From the NCBI GenBank assembly GCA_032622095.1, contig CP136064.1, positions 7,123,512 through 7,187,511 on the forward strand: DNA of 64,000 bases, in the 5' to 3' direction. Source of the DNA: Siphonodentalium dalli (taxonomy: Eukaryota; Mollusca; Scaphopoda; Gadilida; Siphonodentaliidae). Of the stretch, positions 1-57,930 are shown in pieces. The notes under the pieces were generated by a model. The model did not search any database, was not told where the DNA came from, and saw only the letters and a program-made list of their open reading frames with translations. The position numbers were made by a program, and so were the translations under genes. Each line of letters begins with the position of its first letter. Position 1 is the stretch's first letter.

Positions 1-167
1 ATGGTAATTATTTCGGTATTGATAAGAACAATATGAACTGAGCCAGACATAGACAATTTTAATCCTAAAACATAAGAACTGAGAACACGTAAGAAATCCT
101 TACCAAATGTCCTTATGGCAGTGGTATCTCAGCGGAGCGATGGGAAATAACTCTGCCTGGAGTTTGG
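1..167 (+). repeat. Dispersed repeat, left part (inverted partner at 62700-62865)
   Basis: This stretch is the reverse complement, with scattered substitutions, of 62700-62865. Position 1 pairs with 62865 and about 167 with 62700. The match breaks after 'ctggagtttg' at 167 and resumes at about 440-600 against 62560-62668. The left copy is therefore interrupted by about 270 bp. The repeat is not coding. Its family is not recognised. Confidence 0.8.
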
Positions 168-439
168 TTTCCCTATGGAGATGGGTGATATAATGGCATG
201 TAATGTTAACGCCTTTTTGCAGGGTATGCTCATAGGCTACACTGGTGTAAATAGGGTTCGGAGTGACATCTATATACGACCCAAAGCGTCCGGCTTTTGT
301 TCGTTATTATCTCTACGGGAGTAGCTATAGTATGTTACACTGGTGTAAATAGGGCTCGGATGCGGGATGAGAGAATACAATAGACACTGGGCCCTGATTG
401 GTCAATAGCCTTGTGTGCTTTTTGCATAACAAAATCGTC
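168..439 (+). mobile_element. Insertion carrying a single 36-bp monomer
   Basis: Comparison with the uninterrupted inverted copy shows that this segment is extra in the left copy, where the partner has only about 31 bp (62669-62699). It starts with a 'GTTTCCCT' flank, holds one satellite monomer (175-210), then 'GCCTTTTTGCAGGGT'. It also contains two copies of 'ACACTGGTGTAAATAGGG' near 239 and 339. The part at 268-312 is the reverse complement of 28214-28255. The exact right border is uncertain and no target duplication was found. Confidence 0.55.
175..210 (+). repeat. Lone monomer of the 36-bp satellite
   Basis: One complete unit, starting 'ATGGAGATGGGTGATA' and ending 'GTTAAC', is identical in type to the units of the large array. 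It is flanked on the right by 'GCCTTTTTGCAGGGTATG', which closely matches the sequence after the big array (6936-6955). Confidence 0.92.
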
Positions 440-818
440 ACACCTCTTTACTATGATTTCCCATTGGTAAAATAGCCATTGGCACAGGAATTAACCCTTT
501 GTAGTGAAGTTTGAATTTTTTGGTGTGGTCTAAAATATGACAGTATTTATTTTATGCGGTTCTGACCCTAGTTACGAAAACAATGATTTAAAGGCGAATT
601 CCCTGCTAGACGGACATGATTTTTGTTTGCGTAAAAAGTTTCCCCAAATGTCAATTTTTCAGATTTAAAGAAAATTTTGGACCCTAAATTTATATTGCCA
701 ACAGTATACGCTAAAACATTAGCACTGAGTCCTATGGAAAACATTTACACCAGTGTAACCACAACGCGCATATCAAAGCGAGGAATAGGTTTCCCTCTTC
801 TGCACTGGGCCAGAGACT
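440..818. other. Rest of dispersed repeat, then non-coding flank of the array
   Basis: Positions 440-600 align in reverse complement with 62560-62668, including 'AAATAGCCATTG' and 'ATGACAGTATTT'. 'ATTTACACCAGTGT' at 744-757 is the exact reverse complement of 'ACACTGGTGTAAAT' near 240. From about 787 a 'GGTTTCCCTC' flank precedes the first satellite unit, as it does before the lone monomer. There is no gene here. Confidence 0.6.
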
Positions 819-3522
819 ATGGAGATGAGTGATATAATGGCATGACTATGGAGATGGCTGATATAATGGCATGTAATGTTAACATGGAGATGTCTGATAT
901 AATGGCATGTAATGTTATGGAGATGGCTGATATAATGGCATGTAATGTTATGGAGATGGCTGATATAATGGCATGTAATGTTATGGAGATGGCTGATATA
1001 ATGGCATGTAATGTTATGGAGATGGCTGATATAATGGCATGTAATGTTAACATGGAGATGGCTGATATAATGGCATGTAATGCTATGGAGATGGCTGATA
1101 TAATGGCATGTAATGTTATGGAGATGGCTGATATAATGGCATGTAATGTTATGGAGATGGCTGATATAATGGCATGTAATGTTAACATGGAGATGGCTGA
1201 TATAATGGCATGTAATGCTATGGAGATGGCTGATATAATGGCATGTAATGTTATGGAGATGGCTGATATAATGGCATGTAATGTTAACATGGAGATGGGT
1301 GATATAATGGCATGTAATGTTATGGAGATGGCTGATATAATGGCATGTAATGTTAACATGGAGATGGGTGATATAATGGCATGTAATGTTATGGAGATGG
1401 CTGATATAATGGCATGTAATGTTATGGAGATGGCTGATATAATGGCATGTAATGTTAACATGGAGATGAGTGATATAATGGCATGTAATGTTAACATGGA
1501 GATGGGTGATATAATGGCATGTAATGTTAACATGGAGATGGGTGATATAATGGCATGTAATGTTATGGAGATGGCTGATATAATGGCATGTAATGTTAAC
1601 ATGGAGATGGGTGATATAATGGCATGTAATGTTATGGAGATGGCTGATATAATGGCATGTAATGTTATGGAGATGGCTGATATAATGGCATGTAATGTTA
1701 ACATGGAGATGAGTGATATAATGGCATGTAATGTTAACATGGAGATGGGTGATATAATGGCATGTAATGTTAAAATGGAGATGGGTGATATAATGGCATG
1801 TAATGTTATGGAGATGGCTGATATAATGGCATGTAATGTTAACATGGAGATGGGTGATATAATGGCATGTAATGTTATGGAGATGGCTGATATAATGGCA
1901 TGTAATGTTATGGAGATGGCTGATATAATGGCATGTAATGTTAACATGGAGATGGGTGATATAATGGCATGTAATGTTAACATGGAGATGGGTGATATAA
2001 TGGCATGTAATGTTAAAATTGGAGATGGCTGATATAATGGCATGTAATGTTATGGAGATGGCTGATATAATGGCATGTAATGTTAACATGGAGATGGCTG
2101 ATATAATGGCATGTAATGTTATGGAGATGGCTGATATAATGGCATGTAATGTTAACATGGAGATGGGTGATATAATGGCATGTAATGTTAACATGGAGAT
2201 GGGTGATATAATGGCATGTAATGTTAACATGGAGATGGGTGATATAATGGCATGTAATGTTAACATTGGAGATGGCTGATATAATGGCATGTAATGTTAT
2301 GGAGATGGCTGATATAATGGCATGTAATGTTAACATGGAGATGGCTGATATAATGGCATGTAATGTTAACATGGAGATGGCTGATATAATGGCATGTAAT
2401 GTTATGGAGATGGCTGATATAATGGCATGTAATGTTAACATGAAGATGAGTGATATAATGGCATGTAATGTTAACATGGAGATGGCTGATATAATGGCAT
2501 GTAATGTTAACATGAAGATGGGTGATATAATGGCATGTAATGTTAACATGGAGATGGCTGATATAATGGCATGTAATGTTAACATGGAGATGGGTGATAT
2601 AATGGCATGTAATGTTAACATGGAGATGGCTGATATAATGGCATGTAATGTTAACATGGAGATGGCTGATATAATGACATGTAATGTTAACATGGAGATG
2701 GCTGATATAATGGCATGTAATGTTAACATGGAGATGGGTGATATAATGGCATGTAATGTTAACATGGAGATGGGTGATATAATGGCATGTAATGTTAACA
2801 TGGAGATGGCTGATATAATGGCATGTAATGTTAACATGGAGATGGCTGATATAATGGCATGTAATGTTAACATGGAGATGGGTGATATAATGGCATGTAA
2901 TGTTAACATGGAGATGGGTGATATAATGGCATGTAATGTTAACATGGAGATGGGTGATATAATGGCATGTAATGTTAACATGGAGATGGCTGATATAATG
3001 GCATGTAATGTTAACATGGAGATGGGTGATATAATGGCATGTAATGTTAACATGGAGATGGGTGATATAATGGCATGTAATGTTAACATGGAGATGGGTG
3101 ATATAATGGCATGTAATGTTAACATGGAGATGGCTGATATAATGGCATGTAATGTTAACATGGAGATGGGTGATATAATGGCATGTAATGTTAACATGGA
3201 GATGGCTGATATAATGGCATGTAATGTTAACATGGAGATGGGTGATATAATGGCATGTAATGTTAACATGTAGATGGCTGATATAATGGCATGTAATGTT
3301 AACATGGAGATGGGTGATATAATGGCATGAAATGTTAACATGGAGATGGGTGATATAATGGCATGTAATGTTAACATGGAGATGGGTGATATAATGGCAT
3401 GTAATGTTAACATGGAGATGGCTGATATAATGGCATGTAATGTTAACATGGAGATGGGTGATATAATGGCATGTAATGTTAACATGGAGATGGGTGATAT
3501 AATGGCATGTAATGTTAACATG

Positions 3523-4993
3523 TAGATGGCTGACATAATGGCATGTAATGTTAACATGGAGATGGGTGATATAATGGCATGTAATGTTAACATGGAGATG
3601 GCTGATATAATGGCATGTAATGTTAACATGTAGATGGCTGATATAATGGCATGTAATGTTAACATGGAGATGGGTGATATAATGGCATGTAATGTTAACA
3701 TGGAGATGGCTGATATAATGGCATGTAATGTTAACATGGAGATGGGTGATATAATGGCATGTAATGTTAACATGGAGATGGGTGATATAATGGTATGTAA
3801 TGTTAACATGGAGATGGCTGATATAATGGCATGTAATGTTAACATGGAGATGGGTAATATAATGGCATGTAATGTTATGGAGATGGCTGATATAATGGCA
3901 TGTAATGTTAACATGGAGATGGCTGATATAATGGCATGTAATGTTAACATGGAGATGGGTGATATAATGGTATGTAATGTTAACATGGAGATGGCTGATA
4001 TAATGGCATGTAATGTTAACATGGAGATGGGTGATATAATGGCATGTAATGTTAACATGGAGATGGCTGATATAATGGCATGTAATGATAACATGGAGAT
4101 GGGTGATATAATGGCATGTAATGTTAACATGGAGATGGGTGATATAATGGCATGTAATGTTAACATGGAGATGGGTGATATAATGGCATGTAATGTTAAC
4201 ATGGAGATGGCTGATATAATGGCATGTAATGTTAACATGGAGATGGCTGATATAATGGCATGTAATGTTAACATGGAGATGGGTGATATAATGGCATGTA
4301 ATGTTAACATGGAGATGGCTGATATAATGGCATGTAATGTTAACATGGAGATGGCTGATATAATGGTATGTAATGTTAACATGGAGATGGCTGATATAAT
4401 GGCATGTAATGTTAACATGGAGATGGGTGATATAATGGCATGTAATGTTAACATGGAGATGGCTGATATAATGGCATGTAATGTTAACATGGAGATGGGT
4501 GATTATAATGGCATGTAATGTTAACATGGAGATGGGTGATATAATGGCATGCAATGTTAACATGGAGATGGGTGATATAATGGCATGTAATGTTAACATG
4601 GAGATGGGTGATATAATGGCATGTAATGTTAACATGGAGATGGGTGATATAATGGCATGTAATGTTAACATGGATATGGCTGATATAATGGCATGTAATG
4701 TTAACATGGAGATGGCTGATATAATGGCATGTAATGTTAACATGGAGATGGCTGATATAATGGCATGTAATATTAACATGGAGATGGCTGATATAATGGC
4801 ATGTAATGTTAACATGGAGATGGGTGATATAATGGCATGTAATGTTAACATGGAGATGGGTGATATAATGGCATGTAATGTTAACATGGAGATGGGTGAT
4901 ATAATGGCATGTAATGTTAACATGGAGATGGCTGATATAATGGCATGTAATGTTAACATGGAGATGGCTGATATAATGGCATGTAATGTTAAC
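3523..4993 (+). repeat. Higher-order copy 1 inside the 36-bp array
   Basis: This block is repeated at 5465-6935 with a constant 1942-bp shift (53 units of 36, one of 33 and one extra base). Rare markers are shared at the same offset: TAG at 3523/5465 and 3631/5573, 'GACATAATGG', 'GGTAATATAATGG', the 'GATTATAATGG' insertion at 4501/6443, and 'GGATATGGCTG'. I noted only an isolated substitution (ATG to ACG near 5715). The duplication is recent. Confidence 0.9.
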
Positions 4994-5464
4994 ATGGAGA
5001 TGGCTGATATAATGGCATGTAATGTTAACATGGAGATGGGTGATATAATGGCATGTAATGTTAACATGTAGATGGCTGATATAATGGCATGTAATGTTAA
5101 CATGGAGATGGGTGATATAATGGCATGAAATGTTAACATGGAGATGGGTGATATAATGGCATGTAATGTTAACATGGAGATGGGTGATATAATGGCATGT
5201 AATGTTAACATGGAGATGGCTGATATAATGGCATGTAATGTTAACATGGAGATGGCTGATATAATGGCATGTAATGTTAACATGGAGATGGGTGATATAA
5301 TGGCATGTAATGTTAACATGTAGATGGCTGATATAATGGCATGTAATGTTAACATGGAGATGGGTGATATAATGGCATGAAATGTTAACATGGAGATGGG
5401 TGATATAATGGCATGTAATGTTAACATGGAGATGGGTGATATAATGGCATGTAATGTTAACATG

Positions 5465-6935
5465 TAGATGGCTGACATAATGGCATGTAATGTTAACATG
5501 GAGATGGGTGATATAATGGCATGTAATGTTAACATGGAGATGGCTGATATAATGGCATGTAATGTTAACATGTAGATGGCTGATATAATGGCATGTAATG
5601 TTAACATGGAGATGGGTGATATAATGGCATGTAATGTTAACATGGAGATGGCTGATATAATGGCATGTAATGTTAACATGGAGATGGGTGATATAATGGC
5701 ATGTAATGTTAACACGGAGATGGGTGATATAATGGTATGTAATGTTAACATGGAGATGGCTGATATAATGGCATGTAATGTTAACATGGAGATGGGTAAT
5801 ATAATGGCATGTAATGTTATGGAGATGGCTGATATAATGGCATGTAATGTTAACATGGAGATGGCTGATATAATGGCATGTAATGTTAACATGGAGATGG
5901 GTGATATAATGGTATGTAATGTTAACATGGAGATGGCTGATATAATGGCATGTAATGTTAACATGGAGATGGGTGATATAATGGCATGTAATGTTAACAT
6001 GGAGATGGCTGATATAATGGCATGTAATGATAACATGGAGATGGGTGATATAATGGCATGTAATGTTAACATGGAGATGGGTGATATAATGGCATGTAAT
6101 GTTAACATGGAGATGGGTGATATAATGGCATGTAATGTTAACATGGAGATGGCTGATATAATGGCATGTAATGTTAACATGGAGATGGCTGATATAATGG
6201 CATGTAATGTTAACATGGAGATGGGTGATATAATGGCATGTAATGTTAACATGGAGATGGCTGATATAATGGCATGTAATGTTAACATGGAGATGGCTGA
6301 TATAATGGTATGTAATGTTAACATGGAGATGGCTGATATAATGGCATGTAATGTTAACATGGAGATGGGTGATATAATGGCATGTAATGTTAACATGGAG
6401 ATGGCTGATATAATGGCATGTAATGTTAACATGGAGATGGGTGATTATAATGGCATGTAATGTTAACATGGAGATGGGTGATATAATGGCATGCAATGTT
6501 AACATGGAGATGGGTGATATAATGGCATGTAATGTTAACATGGAGATGGGTGATATAATGGCATGTAATGTTAACATGGAGATGGGTGATATAATGGCAT
6601 GTAATGTTAACATGGATATGGCTGATATAATGGCATGTAATGTTAACATGGAGATGGCTGATATAATGGCATGTAATGTTAACATGGAGATGGCTGATAT
6701 AATGGCATGTAATATTAACATGGAGATGGCTGATATAATGGCATGTAATGTTAACATGGAGATGGGTGATATAATGGCATGTAATGTTAACATGGAGATG
6801 GGTGATATAATGGCATGTAATGTTAACATGGAGATGGGTGATATAATGGCATGTAATGTTAACATGGAGATGGCTGATATAATGGCATGTAATGTTAACA
6901 TGGAGATGGCTGATATAATGGCATGTAATGTTAAC
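5465..6935 (+). repeat. Higher-order copy 2 inside the 36-bp array
   Basis: This is the second copy of the block described at 3523-4993. Upstream of it a smaller 252-bp (seven-unit) duplication carries a TAG unit followed by a TGA unit at 5069/5121 and again at 5321/5373. This shows ongoing unequal exchange inside the array. Confidence 0.88.
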
Positions 6936-6959
6936 ACCTTTTGTTGCAGGGTGTGATCA
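6936..6959 (+). other. Conserved right flank of the 36-bp array
   Basis: 'ACCTTTTGTTGCAGGGTGTG' follows the last GTTAAC. The lone monomer at 175-210 is followed by 'GCCTTTTTGCAGGGTATG'. The shared flank shows that the array and the lone monomer belong to the same parental element. It is interrupted at 6960 by a MITE. Confidence 0.7.
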
Positions 6960-6961
6960 TA

Positions 6962-7172
6962 CAGTAATGCCCTAATTAATCGACTCCTTAACCACAGCAG
7001 AATTATGGGTAACTTTTCAGGATTTAGTCCGAAATATGGCTTATCATTCATCGGAAAGCTCTCACCCGATAGCTTTCCGATGAATGGCAACGAGCCATGT
7101 TTCCGACTAAATCCTGAAAAGTTACCCATAATTATGCTGTGGTTAAGGAGTTGATTACTTAGGGCATTACTG
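6962..7172. mobile_element. Palindromic MITE, TA target duplication (copy 1)
   Basis: The 211-bp foldback element begins CAGTAATGCCCTAAT and ends with the inverted end GGGCATTACTG, flanked by TA on both sides (6960-6961, 7173-7174). Most of the element is self-complementary, with an internal hairpin around 'GGAAAGCT'. A second copy is at 33509-33676. TA duplication and CAG termini fit a non-autonomous Tc1/mariner-type element; the superfamily is an inference. Confidence 0.88.
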
Positions 7173-7174
7173 TA

Positions 7175-7953
7175 GTAAGGATGGTTCGGGGGGTGGGTAT
7201 TGGCGTGAAGGGCCGAATCGTTATAATTAATGTTACAGAGCGTGTATTAGTCATTTGTCATTTTTTATCAATGTGATGATAGCAAATAAGAGCACTCACG
7301 CCGTGATAGTGTTGTGTAGTTGAGTGAATGCATAAAAAGATAATTTATAAGTCTTATATTTCAACTTTTATAGACATTTTTCGTTCTGCAGCGCACTGGG
7401 GGTTGTGGTCGGAGACGGCCGAGTCGGCCGCGTTTCGTTAATTAGGTGTTGGTTGTTATTGTTATTTTACACGGAATAATGAGCTGGTCATTCGTGAAAC
7501 CAATATATTTTATATTATATAATTACAATCATGGGTATATAATATATGATGTTGAGCGCGTTGCCATTTTTTAAATTGGTTTTTATTGTAATGTTTCTGC
7601 CTTTGTCATGCGTTGTCGAATATTATCAAATTAGGTGCGCTATCCACGTAACTAATCATTATTATTGGTCTGACAATGCACGGATGAAATTAACAGCACA
7701 GCTATGGGGAATTGAGGTCAGTATTGCCTCCAGTTGGAGGCGGCGTTTACACATCACAGGTCCGTGACATTTGAATATGTTCTAAACAGTGATTTTGCAC
7801 ATGCAAACATGTTGAATCCGGGACCACTCTCCGAGACACAAACACCATCACCATGCTGATCGATATGTATACCGCTCTATGTTGCACGTGGCAAGAAAAT
7901 AATGTGATTCGCTCAATTGACTTAAGTAACAACTTAAGTTTGTGTCACACGTA
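7175..7953. other. No gene seen
   Basis: A+T-rich DNA with short open frames only (for example 7546-7767). These have no recognisable domain, no splice context and no repeat-independent support. Confidence 0.5.
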
Positions 7954-8143
7954 GTTCGTTGGGGATCAGTTAATTCATGGCGGGGATACTGGTCTCATAT
8001 ATCGGTCACATGATCGATTTTAGAGGGGATACTGGTCTCATATATCGGTCACATGATCGATTTTAGACACCACGATTCAGGGTTCTCAGGAATCCAACCA
8101 TTCGGGTGCACTCATGAATCGAGTTTATAGTGTACTACCAGTG
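7954..8143 (+). repeat. Dispersed direct repeat, copy 1
   Basis: Copy 1 starts 'GTTCGTTGGGGATCAG' and ends 'GAGTTTATAGTGTACTA'. Copy 2 is at 8740-8886. Within copy 1 a 43-bp segment ('GGGGATACTGGTCTCATA') is tandemly duplicated at 7982-8024 and 8025-8067; copy 2 has it once. It is not coding. Confidence 0.85.
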
Positions 8144-8717: not shown

Positions 8718-8739
8718 CAACTAATGTTAAACCGAACGA

Positions 8740-8886
8740 GTTCGTTGGGTATCAGTTCATTCATGGCGGGGATACTGGTCTCATTTATCGGTCACATGAT
8801 CGATTTTAGACCCAACGATTCAGGGTTCTTGTGAGTCCAACCACTCGGGTGCACTCACGAATCGAGTTTATAATATACTATCAGTG
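8740..8886 (+). repeat. Dispersed direct repeat, copy 2
   Basis: Single-unit version of 7954-8143, about 90% similar by eye. The hairpin module at 8639-8717 lies between the two copies. Confidence 0.85.
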
Positions 8887-28199: not shown

Positions 28200-28990
28200 T
28201 CACAATAACAATTATAACGAAACAAAGCCGGACGCTTTGGGTCGTATATAGACTATATCTTATTTTGTGATGTCACCAATTATTATCTAATACGACGCTG
28301 TTGTTTTGATTTTCGGAGCGCGAATGTCGCACAGTAGATCGGTGGGCTTAAAGCATTAATATCGTAATCGGCTGTCAAGAGGCCAACCCAAATCAGTCGA
28401 CGTGCAACATTCTCATATTTATATAAACGTCATAAAATCATTTAGTTGTTTTTATTTATAAGGAAAAGTAGGTCCATAATGAATTTCTAACGGGTCTACT
28501 CCGACCCTCTACTAGATCAAATCATCGGACCCTAGGAAGTTTTAATATTTTTTTAAATAAATCAAAATCACCACAACTCAACACGATCTACGTGTATCTC
28601 AAAGCTTTATTTTCCAACTGATGCACAGCAGTTGATCAATACTACATGGTCCTGTAGATAGTATACCGTGCGAAAGGAAATAAGATCATATATAATATGG
28701 ATTTGATTGTTATCACAAGTCTTCATACTTACATGCATCTGATAATCCATATATATCCTATTTTATGAATAGAATGAAAACACATACTTATGATCAAAGC
28801 AGAAGATACATTCAGTTCCACGCGAATTCGGTCAATGGTTAAAGGTACACGATGACATTGTTTGTCGACTATCGTTGAAATCGACATGATGACATGTTAT
28901 GAAATGAACATCCTGAGTATCTGAAGCGGAGAGCTCCCCAGCACGCCAAGTATTATAATGGTTAGTTTCAGTCCAGACACTCTCGACAAC
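28200..28990 (+). repeat. Dispersed repeat, inverted partner at 57425-57930
   Basis: The reverse complement matches 57425-57930 in blocks: 28200-28385 with 57745-57930, and 28665-28990 with 57425-57740. About 280 bp at 28386-28664 has no counterpart. Its beginning (28214-28255) is also found in reverse complement at 268-312. It is not coding and its family is not recognised. Confidence 0.8.
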
Positions 28991-29400
28991 ATATATAACT
29001 ATTTATAATTACCCCACCAAACATAAGTCTTATGCATGTGAATCTTATTTGGTTGGAGTCTATAACGTGATTTTGACACGAATTGTTTTAAACGCTTTTA
29101 GCTTTGGTTCCTTAATTACGCTTGCGTATGATCATATTAATATATGCTTAACAACCACGGTCCAATATGGCCAGAAAATGAAAGCATTTATATATAACGA
29201 CAACGGAGGGGTTGAATGAAAACACACACATGACGAAGCGAATCTTGTGACAGAAAATCTAAAAGAACCGGAGATTAACAATCTGATTCATTACGCTGGC
29301 TACATCACCAACAGTGACGCGATGACCGGGGTTTGGGGTGTCTAAACCCGCAACTTTGGTCAAATTTTCCAACAGTTGGAAATATCATGCCTGATATTAT
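28991..29400. other. No gene seen
   Basis: Non-coding sequence with no recognisable feature. Confidence 0.5.
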
Positions 29401-29430: not shown

Positions 29431-30090
29431 ATGGTATGTTATGTAACCAATATGTCGTTTGTGAAGTTTTATTATGTGTATGTGGTATATTTAATTTTGT
29501 GTAACCAATTTGTCGTGAGTGTAAGTTTTATGGTATGTTATGTAACCATTATGTCGTTAGTGAAGTTTTATGGTATGTTATGTAACCATTATGTCGTTAG
29601 TGAAGTTTTATGGTATGTTATGTAACCATTATGTCGTTAGTGAAGTTTTATGGTATGTTATGTAACCATTATGTCGTTAGTGAAGTTTTATGGTATGTTA
29701 TGTAACCATTATGTCGTTAGTGAAGTTTTATGGTATGTTATGTAACCATTATGTCGTTAGTGAAGTGTTATGGTATGTTATGTAACCATTATGTCGTTAG
29801 TGAAGTTTTATGGTATGTTATGTAACCATTATGTCGTTAGTGAAGTTTTATTGTATGTTATGTAACCATTATGTCGTTAGTGAAGTTTTTTGGTATGTTA
29901 TGTAACCATTATGTCGTTAGTGAAGTTTTATGGTATGTTATGTAACCATTATGTCGTTAGTGAAGTTTTATGGTATGTTATGTAACCATTATGTCGTTAG
30001 TGAAGTTTTATGGTATGTTATGTAACCATTATGTCGTTAGTGAAGTTTTATGGTATGTTATGTAACCATTATGTCGTTAGTGAAGTTTTA
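29431..30090 (+). repeat. 40-bp minisatellite, left part
   Basis: Unit 'TATGGTATGTTATGTAACCA' followed by TTATGTCGTTAGTGAAGTTT. About 14 near-identical copies follow two or three divergent ones. The array is interrupted at 30091 by a LINE fragment and resumes at 30913. Confidence 0.96.
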
Positions 30091-30912
30091 TATATATATA
30101 TATATGCCTTTATTTCCTCCAATCATGAAGAGCGCTTATATAATTTATACATACAGTCATAAATGTTAACATTAAAATACACAATGGTAAGTTAAGTAAA
30201 ATTTTACAGTTTATAAGACATTCATTCATCAATGTTCATACACCCGTCTCATTCACTCTGTGGTTCGTGCCAATAAAGTAAGAATATATAAGTAAGGAGT
30301 AAATTAGTATTATATTTCGTTATTATTGGCTTTTCCATACACATTACAGGGTTGGTAGATCCCACGTCTATGTGGTTGGGGTGAGTGGGATATCAATTAT
30401 ATCGGTTGTTGTCAATGGGGACGCTTGTTGCATTCTCTGGGGTTAAATGACAGATGGTAACTCGGTGTCATTGGAGTAAAGTTGACGAGTACTTTTTCCA
30501 TAATAAGGAAGTCCTTTTGACAAGAAACACTATGAAATCATTCAGTGAATCGATGTGACGGCTGACTACTGACTACCATTAACTGTTCTCGGCTGGGCAT
30601 CTCATCGATAGCCAAAAAGCACGCGATGCTGAAGTTATTAAGAATGGAATACCATATATCATTCCTTATTATGATCAAGGTGTTATTAGAACAGTGAATA
30701 ATGACATGTTCGACAACATTGTTATACGTTGAGCTGCATAGGTGGCACTTTCCCAGTTCCGGGATCATAGATTGTGCAAGAAGCTTGCCCACAATTATAC
30801 ATTCTTTTTTCAGAAAAGGAGAGGTTCGACATAAATTCCAAAGTGCTGATACATTTAAGGTTGTATAGCAGTTTGAAAATGAGGTGAGTGACACGTCCTG
30901 TTCCATTCTGTT
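30091..30912 (-). mobile_element. 5'-truncated LINE fragment inside the 40-bp array
   Basis: An 822-bp insertion splits the minisatellite. On the minus strand it carries the end of an open frame (30906 to the stop at 30538-30540), then about 445 bp of 3' untranslated sequence ending in a (TA)n tail at 30090-30104. A 3' simple tail, 5' truncation and placement inside a regular array fit target-primed insertion of a non-LTR retrotransposon. Confidence 0.72.
30538..30906 (-). pseudogene. C-terminal fragment of a LINE ORF2-like protein
   Basis: This 122-codon frame contains a C-x2-C...H...H/C cluster ('CHLCSSTYNNVVEHVIIHC', about residues 54-72) followed by a 'NDIWYSIL' stretch. This resembles the cysteine/histidine-rich end of CR1/Jockey-group ORF2 proteins, and the larger LINE at 46.9-48.9 kb has a comparable cluster in its last 50 residues. 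No reverse-transcriptase motif remains because the element is truncated at 30912. The frame ends in TGA at 30538-30540. Function is lost. The family call rests on the motif and the insertion context. Confidence 0.55.
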
Positions 30913-31225
30913 TATGGTATGTTATGTAACCATTATGTCGTTAGTGAAGTTTTGTGGTATGTTATGTAACCATTATGTCGTTAGTGAAGTTTTATGGTAT
31001 ATTGTGTAACCATTATGTCGTTAGTGAAGTTTTATGGTATGTTATGTAACCATTGTGTCGTTAGTGAAGTTTTATTGTATATTATGTAACCATTATGTCG
31101 TTAATGAAGTTTTATGGTATGTTATGTAACCATTATGTCGTTAGTGAAGTTTTATGGTATGTTATGTAACCATTATGTCGTTAGTGAAGTTTTATGGTAT
31201 GTTATGTAACCATTATGTCATTACA
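30913..31225 (+). repeat. 40-bp minisatellite, right part
   Basis: About eight more copies of the 29431-30090 unit. They are slightly more divergent than the left-hand copies. Confidence 0.95.
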
Positions 31226-33506: not shown

Positions 33507-33508
33507 TA

Positions 33509-33676
33509 CAGTAATGCCCTAATTAATCGACTCCATAACCACAGCAGAATTATGGGTAATTATTCAGGATCGAGAGCTTTCCGATGAATGGCAACAAGCC
33601 ATATTTCCGACTAAATCCTGAATAATTACCCATAATTCTTCTGTGGTTATGGAGTCGATGAATTAGGGCATTACTG
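33509..33676. mobile_element. Palindromic MITE, TA target duplication (copy 2)
   Basis: Same family as 6962-7172: CAGTAATGCCCTAAT ... GGGCATTACTG, with TA at 33507-33508 and 33677-33678. It is 168 bp, shorter because one internal hairpin arm is missing. Confidence 0.9.
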
Positions 33677-33678
33677 TA

Positions 33679-41384: not shown

Positions 41385-44300
41385 AATGATTTATTCAACC
41401 GGTCAGGTAGGGATAGCTGCATTCAACCGGCCAGGTGGGGATAGCTGCATTCAACCGGCCAGGTGGGGATAGCTGTATTCAACCCGCCAGGTGGGGATAG
41501 CTGTATTCAACCGGTCAGGTGGTGATAGCTGCATTCAACCGGTCAGGTGGTGATAGCAGCATTCAACCGGACAGGTGGGGATAGCTGCATTCAACCGGTC
41601 AGGTGGTGATAGCTGCATTCAACCGGCCAGGTGTGGATAGCTGCATTCAACCCGCCAGGTGGTGATAGCAGCATTCAACCGGACAGGTGGGGGTAGCAGC
41701 ATTCAACCGGACAGGTGGGGATAGCTGCATTCAACCGGTCAGGTGGTGATAGCAGCATTCAACCGGTCAGGTGGTGATAGCAGCATTCAACCCGCCAGGT
41801 GGTGATAGCAGCATTCAACCGGTCAGGTGGTGATAGCAGCATTCAACCGGACAGGTGGGGATAGCTGCATTCAACCGGTCAGGTGGTGATAGCAACATTC
41901 AACCGGACAGGTGGGGGTAGCTGCATTCAACCGGCCAGGTGGGGATAGCTGCATTCAACCGGTCAGGTGGGGATAACTGCATTCAACCGGCCAGGTGGGG
42001 ATAGCTGTATTCAACTGGCCAGGTGGGGATAGCTGCATTCAACCGGTCAGGTGAGGATAGCTGCATTCAACAGGTCAGGTGGGGATAGCTGTATTCAACT
42101 GGCCAGGTGGGGATAGCTGTATTCAGCCGGCCAGGTGGGGATAGCTGCATTCAACCGGTCAGGTGAGGATAGCAGGATTCAACCGGTCAGGTGGGGATAG
42201 CTGCATTCAACCGACCAGGTGGGGATAGCTGCATTCAACCGGCCAGGTGGGGATAGCTGCATTCAACCGGTCAGGTGGTGATAGCTGCATTCAACCGGTC
42301 AGGTGGGGATAGCTGCATTCAACCGGCCAGGTGGGGATAGCTGCATTCAACCGGCCAGGTGGGGATAGCTGCATTCAACCGGTCAGGTGGTGATAGCTGC
42401 ATTCAACCGGCCAGGTGGTGATAGCTGCATTCAACCGGTCAGGTGGGGATAACTGCATTCAACCGGCCAGGTGGGGATAACTGCATTCAACCGGCCAGGT
42501 GGGGACAGCTGCATTCAACCGTCCAGGTGGGGATAGCTGCATTCAACCGGGCAGGTGGGGATATCTGTATTCAACCGGGCAGGTGGGGATAGCTGGATTC
42601 AACCGGCCAGGTGGGGATAGCTGCATTCAACCGGTCAGGTGGTGATAGCTGCATTCAACCGACCAGATGGGGATAGCTGTATTCAACCGGTCAGGTGGGG
42701 ATAGCTGTATTCAACCGGCCAGGTGGGGATAGCTGTATTCAACCGGGCAGGTGGGGATAGCTGTATTCAACCGGCCAGGTGGGGATAGCTGCATTCAAAT
42801 GGCCAGGTGGGGATAGCTGTATTCAACCGGTCAGGTGGGGATAGCTGCATTCAACCGGCCAGGTGGGGATAGCTGCATTCAACCGGCCAGGCGGGGATAG
42901 CTGCATTCAACCGGCCAGGCGGGGATAGCTGCATTCAACCGACCAGGTGGGGATAGCTGCATTCAACCGGCCAGGTGTGGATAGCTGCATTCAACCGACC
43001 AGGTGGGGATAGCTGCATTCAACCGGCCAGGCGGGGATAGCTGCATTCAACCGACCAGGTGGGGATAGATTCATTCAACCGGCCAGGCGGGGATAGCTGC
43101 ATTCAACCGGCCAGGTGGGGATAGCTGCATTCAACCGGCCAGGCGGGGATAGCTGCATTCAACCGACCAGGTGGGGATAGCTGTATTCAACCGGTCAGGT
43201 GGTGATAGCTGCATTCAACCGGTCAGGTGGTGATAGCAGCATTCAACCGGACACTTGGGGATAGCTGCATTCAACCGGTCAGGTGGTGATAGCAGCATTC
43301 AACCGGACAGGTGGGGATAGTTGCATTCAACCGGTCATGTGGGGATAGCTGCATTCAACCGGCCAGGTGGGGATAGCAGCATTCAACCGGCCAGGTGGGG
43401 ATAGCTGCATTCAACCGGCCAGGTGGGGATAGCTGCATTCAACCGGACAGGTGGTGATAGCTGCATTCAACCGGCCAGGTGGGGATAGCAGCATTCAACC
43501 GGCCAGGTGGGGATAGCTGCATTCAACCGGCCAGGTGGGGATAGCTGCATTCAACCGGCCAGGTGGGGATAGCTGTATTCAACCGGGCAGGTGGGGATAG
43601 CAGCATTCAACCGGCCAGGTGGGGATAGCTGCATTCAACCGGCCAGGTGGGGATAGCTGCATTCAACCGGCCAGGTGGGGATAGCTGCATTCAACCGGAC
43701 AGGTGGGGATAGCAGCATTCAACCGGCCAGGTGGTGATAGCTGCATTCAACCGGCCAGGTAGGGATAACTGCATTCAACCGACCAGGTGGGGATAACTGC
43801 ATTCAACCGGCCAGGTGGGGGTAGCTGCATTCAACCGGCCAGGTGGGGATAGCTGCATTCAACCGGCCAGGTGGGGATAGCTGTATTCAACTGGCCAGGT
43901 GGGGATAGCTGCATTCAACCGGTCAGGTGGTGATAGCTGCATTCAACCGGTCAGGTGGTGATAGCTGCATTCAACCGGCCATGTGGGGATAGCTGCATTC
44001 AACCGGTCAGGGGGGGGTAACTGCATTCAACCGGCCAGGTGGGGATAGCTGCATTCAACCGGCCGGGTGGTGATAGCTGCATTCAACCGGCCAGGTGGGG
44101 GTAGCTGCATTCAACCGGTCAGGTGAGGATAGCTGTATTCAACCGGCCAGGTGGGGATAGCTGCATTCAACCGGCCAGGTGGGGATAGCTGCATTCAACC
44201 GGCTAGGTGGGGATAGCTGCATTCAACCGATCAGGTGGTGATAGCTGCATTCAACTGGCCAGGTGGTGATAGCTGCATTCAACCGGTCAGGTGGGGATAG

Positions 44301-45708
44301 CTGCATTCAACCGGTCAGGTGGGGATAGCTGCATTCAACCGATCAGGTGGTGATAGCTGCATTCAACTGGCCAGGTGGTGATAGCTGCATTCAACCTGCC
44401 AGGTGGGGATAGCTGCATTCAACCGGCCAGGTGGGGATAACTGTATTCAACCGGTCAGGTGGTGATAGCTGCATTCAACCGGCCAGGTGGTGATATCTGC
44501 ATTCAACCGGTCAGGTGGGGATAGCTGCATTCAACCGGCCAGGTGGGGATAGCTATATTCAACTGGCCAGGTGGGGATAGCTATATTCAACCGGCCAGGT
44601 GGGGATAGCTATATTCAACTGGCCATGTGGGGATAGCTATATTCAACTGGCCAGGTGGGGATAGCTATATTCAACCGGCCAGGTGGGGATAACTGCATTC
44701 AACCGGCCAGGTGGGGATAGCTGCATTCAACCGGCCAGGTGGGGATAGCTGCATTCAACCGGTCAGGTGGGGATAACTGCATTCAACCGGCCAGGTGGGG
44801 ATAGCTGCATTCAACCGGCCATGTGGGGATAGCTATATTCAACTGGCCAGGTGGGGATAGCTATATTCAACCGGCCAGGTGGGGATAGCTATATTCAACT
44901 GGCCAGGTGGGGATACCTATATTCAACCGGTCAGGTGGGGATAACTGCATTCAACCGGCCAGGTGGGGATAGCTGCATTCAACCGGCCAGGTGGGGATAG
45001 CTATATTCAACTGGCCAGGTGGGGATAGCTATATTCAACCGGTCAGGTGGGGATAGCTGCATTCAACCGGTCAGGTGGTGATAGCTGCATTCAACCGGTC
45101 AGGTGGGGATAACTGCATTCAACCGGCCAGGTGGGGATAGCTGCATTCAACCGGCCAGGTGGGGATATCTGCATTCAACCGGCCAGGTGGGGATAGCTAT
45201 ATTCAACCGGTCAGGTGGGGATAGCTATATTCAACCGGTCAGGTGGGGATAGCTATATTCAACCGGCCAGGTGGGGATAGCTATATTCAACCGGCCAGGT
45301 GGGGATAGCTATATTCAACTGGCCAGGTGGGGATAGCTATATTCAACCGGTCAGGTGGTGATAGCTGCATTCAACCGGTCAGGTGGTGATAGCTGCATTC
45401 AACCGGTCAGGTGGTGATAGCTGCATTCAACCGGTCAGGTGGGGATAGCTGCATTCAACCGGCCAGGTGGGGATAGCTGCATTCAACCGGCCAGGTGGGG
45501 ATAACTGCATTCAACCGGCCAGGTATGGGTAGCTGCATTCAACTGGCCAGGTGGGGATAGCTATATTCAACCGGTCAGGTGGGGATAGCTGTATTCAACT
45601 GGCCAGGTGGGGATAGCTATATTCAACCGGTCAGGTGGGGATAGCTGTATTCAACTGGCCATGTGGTGATAGCAGCATTCAACCGGTCAGGTGGTGATAG
45701 CTGCATTT
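41385..45708 (+). repeat. 4.3-kb 28-bp minisatellite (about 154 units)
   Basis: Unit 'ATTCAACCGGCCAGGTGGGG' followed by ATAGCTGC. Variation is concentrated at a few positions: (C/T/A/G)CAGGT, GTGG(G/T)GAT, and the ending AGCTGC/AGCTGT/AGCAGC/AACTGC/AGCTAT. Variants are regionally clustered, for example AGCTAT mainly from 44540 to 45640. The period is not a multiple of three and no long frame arises. Confidence 0.97.
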
Positions 45709-46486: not shown

Positions 46487-48958
46487 TTTAAACATATTTA
46501 TTTGTCTAATTTATATAACACATGATATATGACACATACATTGTTTATACAGACAATGGGATTGGAGGACAAGTGCTGACTCACTAATGTGTACCCCCTC
46601 TCCCATATGTTATTACACTGAAAAATAAATAATTGGTAATGGCAAAGCAACATGACTAGCAAAAACAAGTTGAACATATATACATATCACCGGTCACCCC
46701 ACCCCTGAGTTTGTCATAGGTTTGTATAAGTGTTTGATTTAAAGTCGGGTTTCTTTGTTTCGTTTGCTGGCTTGTACGTATCATTATTTAGCAGAGTTAG
46801 TCAAAAGAATCCTGATTTGTCTCGCGTATGAATGACTGTACAGCTAAGAAAATTTTCATGTTGTCACAATAAGGAAGTTCAGGATCTCCAAAAAGCTAAA
46901 TCTTTAATGAATAAATGTTGTAAGGAAGTAATTTATTGAATAGACGGATTCTTGGGATTGAATGTAGGTGGCAATCAAAGAAATAATGAAAGGCATTTTC
47001 TTCACCGTTTCCACAGGTGCAGTCTTTTGAATTTGCAATGTGATTTAGAACCTTATCTGATAGCAAGTTGCTACATTCACATCGTAATCTACAGTGAAAT
47101 ATGTTTTCATTCCGCTTTCCGACAGAATAGTACTTTGGTGGTTTGGGTGTTATAGGTTTAATTTTGTTTACATAACAAAGGTGGCGGAGATCTCGAGTCT
47201 CAATTTTGGTTGCATTCCAGTTTTTTACACACGTTGGCATGAATGTAGACTCCATTCGAAAATGGATAAAGTTTGACGCAAATCTCGTATCATGATCAAT
47301 TATGTCAGAAAATTTGGGTGGAAGTAAGTCGACTAAATATTTGGGCACTTTGTGATTGACGATGTTATGAAAAAGTGAAAAACGCTTTAATTGCCTTCTA
47401 TCTGAGAGTGTTTCCCAACCCATTTCGGTTAGTAGACGTTTGTGGGATACTGATCTCGTGCAGCCACTTATTATTCGTGCAGCCTCGTATTCTACATCAT
47501 CAAGTTTTTTAAGTAACTTATCTGGTGCTCCGGCCCAGACACTACTCGCGTATTCCATGATTGGACGGACGTGTGATAAATAGAGGATTTCAATAGTTTT
47601 GCGGTTCAAAATATACTTCAGTCTTCGTAGTTGGGATAGTTTAGCATAAGCTCTGGTACATACATTTTCTATATAACTGTCCCATGTTAAGTTGTCATCT
47701 ATTTCCATACCTAGATGCGTGTGTTGTTTAGAATATTCGAGTTGCAGTCCATTAAAGACTATATTAGGTCTCTCAGGGCTTTATGAACTTGTAAAAAATA
47801 GTAATTTTGTTTTAGAATTATTGAATTTCACTAGCCATGTATCGGCCCACGTTTTTATGTTTTCCATGTCTTTATTTACACTTTGTTCAAGGTTTTGAAT
47901 GTCCGTATCGGAATTTATGAGGCATGTGTCGTCCGCGTATAATCTAACATTCGATTTAATATTGTCTGCAATATCATTTATGTAGATTAAAAAGAGCAAA
48001 GGGCCGACCACAGACCCTTGGGGGACCCCTGCCTTTATTGGAGAATATTTTGAAAAGCTAGAATTTATTTGCACCCTTTGCTGCCGCCCTTCGAGATAAT
48101 TTCGGAACCATTTTAGCAGAGTGTCTGTTATTCCATAGTGATTTAGTTTAAGTAAAATACCTTGGTGCCATACTTTGTCAAAAGCTTTCGAGATGTCACA
48201 GAAAACAGCGCACGTGCTTTATTCATTGTCTACAGCGTGGTGTATATTGTGAAATATTTCAATAAGTTGTTGTTCAGTACTGTGACCTGGTATAAAACCG
48301 GATTGGTATTTGTATAATAGGTTGTTTATATTTAAATGATTAAAGACTTTGTTGAAGACTACCTTTTCTAGTATTTTACCAACACAACTTATTAATGAGA
48401 TGGGACGATAGTTGTTTGGATCATGACGGTCACCATTTTTAAATATTGGTATTATGTTTGCCCTTTTCCATGCTTCGGGGAAACAGCAGCTCTTAAAAGA
48501 TTTATTAAAAATATAACGTAAGGGTTTACTGATGGAGCTGCGTGTTTCCCTGAGCAATTTATTGTTTATCCCATCAGGACCGTTTGCCTTTTTAATAGGA
48601 AGACATTTTAGGATTTCAAAAATTTCATTTTCATTTGTCTTAATTTCATTTAAAAACGCATGAGTTATATCTGAAAAGATCGGTGGCTCCCTTGTGTTAG
48701 TTTCTAGTGTGCTGTGTTTAGTGAATATCGCATTGAGGACTTCCGCCTTTTGTATATCATCTTCTATATCTGTATTGCCCGATTTCAGTATAGGAATTGT
48801 ATTATCGGTCGAAAAATTACTTAGTAGTTGTTTGACAGTGGTCCAGACATCGGTTGTTATCATACTCACGGGTAGGTTACTTAGAAGTTCTGATCTAATT
48901 GTGGAGTAAAGAGGGCATATATAATTTGACGACGTACATGTATAGTACCATGAGTTGT
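46487..48958 (-). mobile_element. 5'-truncated non-LTR retrotransposon (CR1/L2/Jockey group)
   Basis: A minus-strand element whose coding part is at 46896-48958. The 3' untranslated region runs down to about 46487, where 'GTTTAAACATATTTATTTGT' resembles the terminal phrase of the fragments at 17214 and 45829. The endonuclease half and ORF1 are absent and the element ends near 48958. No clear target duplication was found. Confidence 0.8.
46896..48958 (-). pseudogene. Reverse-transcriptase ORF2 fragment, two in-frame stops
   Basis: One reading frame of about 687 codons covers most of a LINE reverse-transcriptase domain and the C-terminal region. In order: 'KANGPDGI' (about 48590), 'NNYRPISLIS' (about 48405), 'QSGFIPGHSTEQQL' (about 48280), the 'FCDISKAFD' catalytic aspartate motif just after the first stop, 'AGVPQGSVVGPLLF' (about 48030), the YADD active site (about 47938), 'LYLSHVRPIMEYASSVW' (about 47560) and a C-terminal Cys/His cluster ending 'AFHYFFDC' (about 46950). 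The motif style is that of the CR1/L2/Jockey group. The frame is broken by TAA at 48219-48221 and TAA at 47781-47783 but has no frameshift, so it is young or only lightly decayed. The N-terminal endonuclease is missing. The terminal stop is TAG at 46896-46898. As it stands the protein is dead. Confidence 0.92.
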
Positions 48959-49129
48959 TAACCGCGATCGAACTGCCGGCCGCGAGTACTGTGAAACATC
49001 TCCAATTTATTTCTGTTTTTATTCGTTTTCGGATGCTGGACTACATATTACGTTCGACACTCTACACCAATTCACATTAAACCGACTCACATTCGTCATG
49101 CATCACATTATACATGCACAAAACACAAA
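48959..49129. other. Short unique spacer
   Basis: Non-coding DNA between the LINE and the 56-bp array. Confidence 0.5.
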
Positions 49130-57163: not shown

Positions 57164-57424
57164 GAGTTAGAGGAAATGGCGGCCATCTTGGATTCAAATG
57201 GCTCTAGCACCCAGTAGGGCCACCTTTATTTTTCGGTGAATTCCGGATTCTTTATCTGGATACCATAGGGAACAATAAAAATAAGGTTATTTGTAATCAT
57301 CGGGGGAGGGGGGGGTGCAGGTGGACCTTATTGGCTCCCCGACTAATATGACTTATATTGCGTGGGGTAATTATAAACAGTTATATACGTTTTCGAGAGT
57401 GGAACTGAAAATAACCGTTATATT
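57164..57424. other. No gene seen; poly-G run
   Basis: 'GGGGGAGGGGGGGG' lies near 57301-57315. Nothing else. Confidence 0.5.
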
Positions 57425-57930
57425 ACTTTGCGTGCTGGGGGAGCTCTCTGCTTGAGATACTCAGGCTATAAGGAGAAGCGTGTCCATGTTATAATGTTTA
57501 TTTCATTCATAACATGCCATCATGTCGATTTTAACGACAATCGATATACAACGTCATCATGTAACTTTCCCCATTGAACGAATTCGCGTAGAACTGACTG
57601 TATCTTCTGCTTTGTTCATAAGAATGTGTATTCATTCTATTCAAGAAAATAGTATAATCCAACTATTCAAGACAATAAGATATATGTGGATTATCAGATG
57701 CGTGTATGTACTATCCATACTAAATATTATGTTATTTCCTTTCGCACAGTATCTTGACAGCCGATTACGACATTAATGCTGTAAGCCAACGTTCTACTTT
57801 GCGACAAAAGTGGTCGCATCTCAAAACAATCGCTCCTCGTATTATCTAAAAGATTGGGGACGTCACACAATCATATAGCCTATGTAGAAAGAAAGCTTTG
57901 CTTCGTTATAACAACGGGAGATCAAAAATT
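57425..57930 (-). repeat. Dispersed repeat, inverted partner at 28200-28990
   Basis: This is the shorter copy. It matches 'GCTGGGGGAGCTCTCTGCTT', 'CATCATGTCGATTTTAACGA', 'GAATTCGCG', 'GTGGATTATCAGATGCGTG' and 'CTTGACAGCCGATTACGA' in reverse complement. Confidence 0.8.

Follow-up and report, generated by a model that had tools for sequence, protein, structure and literature searches.

A lone 36-bp unit and a 172-unit tandem array with a common right edge in Siphonodentalium dalli

The lone unit and the array

In a 64,000-nucleotide stretch of Siphonodentalium dalli DNA (the window, meaning the whole stretch analysed here), the same 36-bp sequence is found once on its own, at 175 to 210 on the plus strand, and again as the unit of a tandem array with 172 members at 819 to 6935 on the same strand. 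The two lie in the same orientation with about 640 bp between them and are the sole unit-bearing places in the window. On balance we lean, though not heavily, towards reading them as a short duplicate: one copy kept its single unit, and the other was amplified in place.

Counted by unit starts, the array is made up of 143 units of 36 bp, 24 of 33 bp, four of 37 bp and one of 29 bp; TRF places it at 848 to 6936, with a period of 36, 171.0 copies and 95% matches. A 30-base core of the unit, with up to three mismatches allowed, matches 170 times in the window (the lone unit at 175 plus 169 in the array) and not once in 100 shuffles. The contrast between a single unit and about 170 copies, from which the original prediction set out, therefore stands, and the lone unit is identical to type B, the second commonest unit type of the array (55 of 172 units). 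The last unit of the array is of type A and is one base off. Unit edges are in phase at both copies, starting after CT and ending in GTTAAC before G/A-CC. The units run head to tail, fall within 10–100 bp and vary in both length and sequence, as in a minisatellite. An exact 25-base pattern of the unit had no match in viral and prokaryote contig collections, a scope that is little informative here, and six sequence motifs from the window had none in the literature searched by motif, which is the one way in which the unit was sought in print.

That the array could belong to a coding gene or to a structured RNA strikes us as very improbable. The 33- and 36-bp units are multiples of three and a frame of 1,394 aa is open on the minus strand (2260–6444), but such a frame can arise from unit composition alone, and TAG-bearing units, like the 37-bp ones, interrupt the frame on the plus strand. 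Three plus-strand units folded as single-stranded DNA do beat all of 200 shuffles (z −3.55), which would be an effect of the palindrome at the unit joints, but the minus strand of three units folds no better than its shuffles (z −0.64, 51 of 200 as good). Rfam gave no match at the gathering score over the window, and none up to E 1 in 1–1100.

Twenty-one arrays, taken from 73 partly overlapping TRF rows, cover 19,769 of the 64,000 bases. A 28-bp array of 154 copies (41393–45707) shares no unit with the rest of the window at up to E 0.001, and a 40-bp array (29500–31223) appears to be interrupted by some 820 bp of inserted sequence (30092–30910), in which one frame is LINE-like by eye and has no Pfam match. 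Three adjoining minus-strand frames are found at 46896–49040, two of them matching reverse transcriptase (PF00078); the Pfam scan covered six of 65 open frames, of which two match reverse transcriptase.

Sequences flanking the two copies

The original prediction held that both flanks are shared; this stands for the right flank and is not confirmed, in the form in which it was put, for the left. The right flank of the lone unit, GCCTTTTTGCAGGGTATGCTCATAG (211–235, plus strand), aligns with that of the array (6936–6959, plus strand, up to the target site of a later insertion) with 22 of 27 columns identical over GCCTTT--TTGCAGGGTATGCTCATAG, the differences being three substitutions and one 2-base gap. 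Unit and right flank together are identical in 57 of 63 columns, and BLAST aligns 175–234 with 6900–6961 at 90% identity (E 2e-14). The similarity ends at CATAG, about 25 bases in, where the array copy carries a foldback MITE (6960–7174, plus strand) with arms of 82 nt that are 94% complementary. This element interrupts the right flank of the array at a TA; it has a relative at 33507–33678, and both are bounded by TA at each end. Past the MITE, the similarity to the lone flank continues through CATAG only. Homology further out was not detected above chance: 235–430 against 7175–7500 was equalled by 34 of 300 shuffles, 7175–7320 against 28300–28151 (minus strand) by 179 of 300, and 235–430 against 62700–62001 (minus strand) by 210 of 300.

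When extension is anchored at the unit the right flank scores 13.5, which two of 1,500 random positions reach; these two (312 and 316) run into 331–360, a repeat of the query's own 233–262, and the next-best control scores 12.5. With the MITE junction joined correctly the anchored score rises to 15.5 from the same start, or to 16.5 if the extension starts one base earlier. In a cruder scan, which took in 40,282 positions, no control reached 12 (observed, 13.0); over 120 bases of right flank, 7 of 300 shuffles did as well. In free searches of the window the array is the best other match to 211–236 (16.5, against 14.5 for the next place), the lone copy scores 16.5 against 16.0 elsewhere when the array flank is the query, and a query of 207–262 finds the array at 19.5 but the 331–360 repeat at 26. 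Right-flank homology thus beats its controls in the anchored test, and is thinner in the unanchored searches, where its lead over the rest of the window is small.

On the left, the similarity is confined to the 9 bases GGTTTCCCT, which abut the lone unit (166–174, plus strand) and are followed by 22 extra bases at the array, where they occupy 788–796 (plus strand). As a shared flank this is weakly supported: extension anchored at the unit is matched by 370 of 1,500 controls and a 9-base match arose in the left stretch in 13 of 300 shuffles, although with one free gap of up to 30 bases only one of 400 controls is as good. The first G of the lone copy's 9-mer seems to be the last base of an adjoining repeat, whose right part (1–166, plus strand) is 95% identical to 62865–62700 on the minus strand; the full copy there, 63016–62700, has 9-bp terminal inverted repeats (CAAACTCCA). 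Since everything up to 166 belongs to this separate repeat, the genuine left-hand context of the lone unit probably lies behind it, off the window. For the same reason a collinear left match that included 65–83 and 711–729, which one of 300 shuffles equalled and which was one of eight tests, has been set aside. The minus-strand segment 62388–62865 was considered as an empty site and rejected: it matches 1–166 at 95% and 431–761 at 63% (the latter equalled by none of 300 shuffles), identities too unequal for a single pre-insertion copy.

Growth of the array and origin of the pair

The array contains long blocks that are nearly identical to one another. At an offset of 1,942 bp, 3439–4994 and 5381–6936 (both plus strand), the second copy reaching the right edge of the array, differ by one mismatch in 1,556 bp; at 1,798 bp there is one mismatch in 483 bp (2975–3457), at 252 bp, or seven units, none in 280 bp (4933–5212), and at 2,050 bp none in 244 bp (3171–3414). 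The blocks at the 1,942-, 252- and 1,798-bp offsets mean that whole-unit gains and losses are faster than substitution in the array. When each unit is replaced by its type, a 7-unit period (offset 243 bp) emerges near the left end of the array, and long blocks recur on its right. The 33-bp units are crowded at the left, with 22 among the first 48 units and two among the remaining 124, a distribution that points to a younger right part. The simplest order of growth would be one duplication of about 50 units followed by a gain of seven and a loss of three, with almost no substitutions since, although the 1,942-bp block, judged here from the assembly alone, may be an assembly artefact. Such a block pattern is the trace expected of unequal exchange, with gene conversion or a similar process as the alternative.

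How might the two copies have come about? Under the reading towards which we lean, a segment comprising one 36-bp unit, at least 25 bases to its right and perhaps some left flank would have been duplicated, leaving copies about 640 bp apart. The upstream copy would have stayed at one unit, and the downstream copy would have undergone tandem duplication and then amplification in place to 172 units by slippage and unequal exchange (or gene conversion). Later, the repeat with terminal inverted repeats would have come to lie beside the lone unit on its left and the foldback MITE beside the array on its right. The one-unit state would be ancestral here, the duplication local and unequal exchange the mechanism.

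The 57-column identity of unit and right flank, the common unit phase, the rank of the array edge as the best other match to the lone flank (query 211–236), and the large and small block duplications inside the array all agree with this history, as does the restriction of the unit to two places in the window; on simple reasoning, two places so close together and in one orientation are easier to reconcile with local duplication than with a pair of independent insertions. A second pair of paralogues nearby (7953–8143 and 8739–8886) has a 43-bp unit twice and once, respectively, with matching flanks, so that a difference in copy number between paralogues is no peculiarity of the lone unit and the array. 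Against local duplication are the weak left-flank homology and the extent of the right homology, which at about 25 bases is short for a simple segmental duplication and has a small margin over other places in the window; moreover, the upstream copy may have shrunk to one unit from several.

A bolder inference is that part of the distance between the lone unit and the array may be a later insertion that separated copies once closer together, since inverted copies of TTACACTGGTGTAAAT are present between them at 235–252 and 743–760. This motif occurs twice forward (233–262 and 331–360) and once inverted (743–760), and these may be the ends of an old repeat.

The direction could also be the reverse, although we consider this unlikely: the array would have been there first, and repair would have copied some 60 bp of its right edge to give the lone unit, as a templated insertion. 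In its favour, 167–360 is a patchwork, consisting of the unit and its flank, two 30-bp pieces 90% alike (233–262 and 331–360) and a 42-bp piece (269–310) that is 93% identical to 28252–28211 on the minus strand (score 36, reached by none of 300 shuffles). The final unit of the array is nevertheless of type A and the lone unit of type B, one base different; a random patch would, on simple reasoning, start exactly at a unit boundary about one time in 36, and the unit phase is exact; and the three substitutions and 2-base gap in the flank imply that any such copying was not recent. The 42-bp piece recurs from one copy, 28212–29033 (minus strand), of a dispersed repeat whose other copy lies at 57346–57911 (plus strand), with 77% identity over 314 aligned bases.

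Mobile elements and known satellites

A further explanation, which we likewise regard as unlikely, is mobility: both copies would belong to a non-autonomous element built around a short tandem core, with constant ends and a number of units free to range from 1 to about 170. Unit, right flank and edge phase are common to both copies, the left 9-mer is shared if one free gap is allowed (one of 400 controls as good), and passages of PMC8268682 on oyster satellites with Helitron-type ends describe everything from single monomers to arrays of 89. Against it, the 64 kb contain just two copies, separated by about 640 bp, and the subterminal inverted repeats (subTIRs), flank hairpins and left microsatellite of Helentron-type elements were not found in the stretches tested. 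It is more doubtful still that these sequences represent a new non-autonomous family of very small size, in which a 36-bp core would be present in 1 to more than 170 units, with the same ends, at dispersed loci; mobility is not supported by the 64-kb window.

Helentron-type HINEs such as Cg_HINE are marked by 5′ and 3′ subTIRs of 11–12 bp, mutually inverted, a palindrome or hairpin in the right flank, a left-flank microsatellite, many dispersed copies, and insertion at TT with no duplication of the target. At the array, comparison of 501–818 with 6937–6960 plus 7175–7450 gave two inverted 11-mer pairs with one mismatch, overlapping and AT-rich, where 40 shuffles, at up to one mismatch, averaged 1.1 such pairs and gave 5 at most; at the lone copy there is no inverted 9-mer pair between 141–175 and 211–330. 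The Helitron-like hairpin termini that had been envisaged were not borne out, there being no perfect stem of at least six pairs with a loop of 3–10 in 205–330, 6931–6960 plus 7175–7300, or 741–860. DNA folds of the lone-unit region gave z 0.62 (167–236) and z −0.78 (211–262), and no TRF array starts in 1–847 at a minimum score of 50. Pearl-type elements, or MITEs with internal repeats, are marked by terminal inverted repeats around the unit or units and by target-site duplication; no such inverted repeats beyond chance occur in the tested stretches, the left end of the lone copy being outside the window.

Tandem units, recurrent flanks and a unit number that depends on the copy are nonetheless features in which the present case resembles the Cg_HINE and Helitron satellites, as these appear in parts of PMC7492417 and PMC8268682. 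In passages of the latter on Crassostrea gigas, satellites with Helitron-type ends range from single monomers, which are common, up to 89, and CgiSat01 forms arrays with element ends that reach 89 units, as well as standalone arrays of 232. Cg_HINE monomers are mostly 140–180 bp and are flanked by subTIRs, a microsatellite and a 3′ palindrome, according to sections of PMC7492417; the unit here is 36 bp, and subTIRs, microsatellite and palindrome were not found in the flanks tested. In Tetris, a foldback element of Drosophila virilis, internal repeats (TIR-220) are similarly amplified to kb-size arrays of up to 66 copies, for which portions of PMC4079207 discuss unequal crossing over, but those units are about 220 bp and lie inside long terminal inverted repeats, none of which was found in the stretches tested around the unit here. 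Related observations are touched on in parts of PMC5139131, PMC4079207 and the review PMC9659126.

The resemblance to ordinary minisatellites is also close. Such loci have head-to-tail units, mixed unit lengths and block duplications, and the array shares all three with its 36-bp units; what sets it apart is a one-unit relative with the same right flank about 640 bp away. We modestly conclude that this is another case of the oyster-satellite kind or an ordinary minisatellite. The principle is one already documented in oysters and Drosophila, and what is added is chiefly a further case, in which the unit is shorter; relatives of one and of 172 units with a common right edge may nevertheless be a before-and-after pair for the start and growth of a tandem array.
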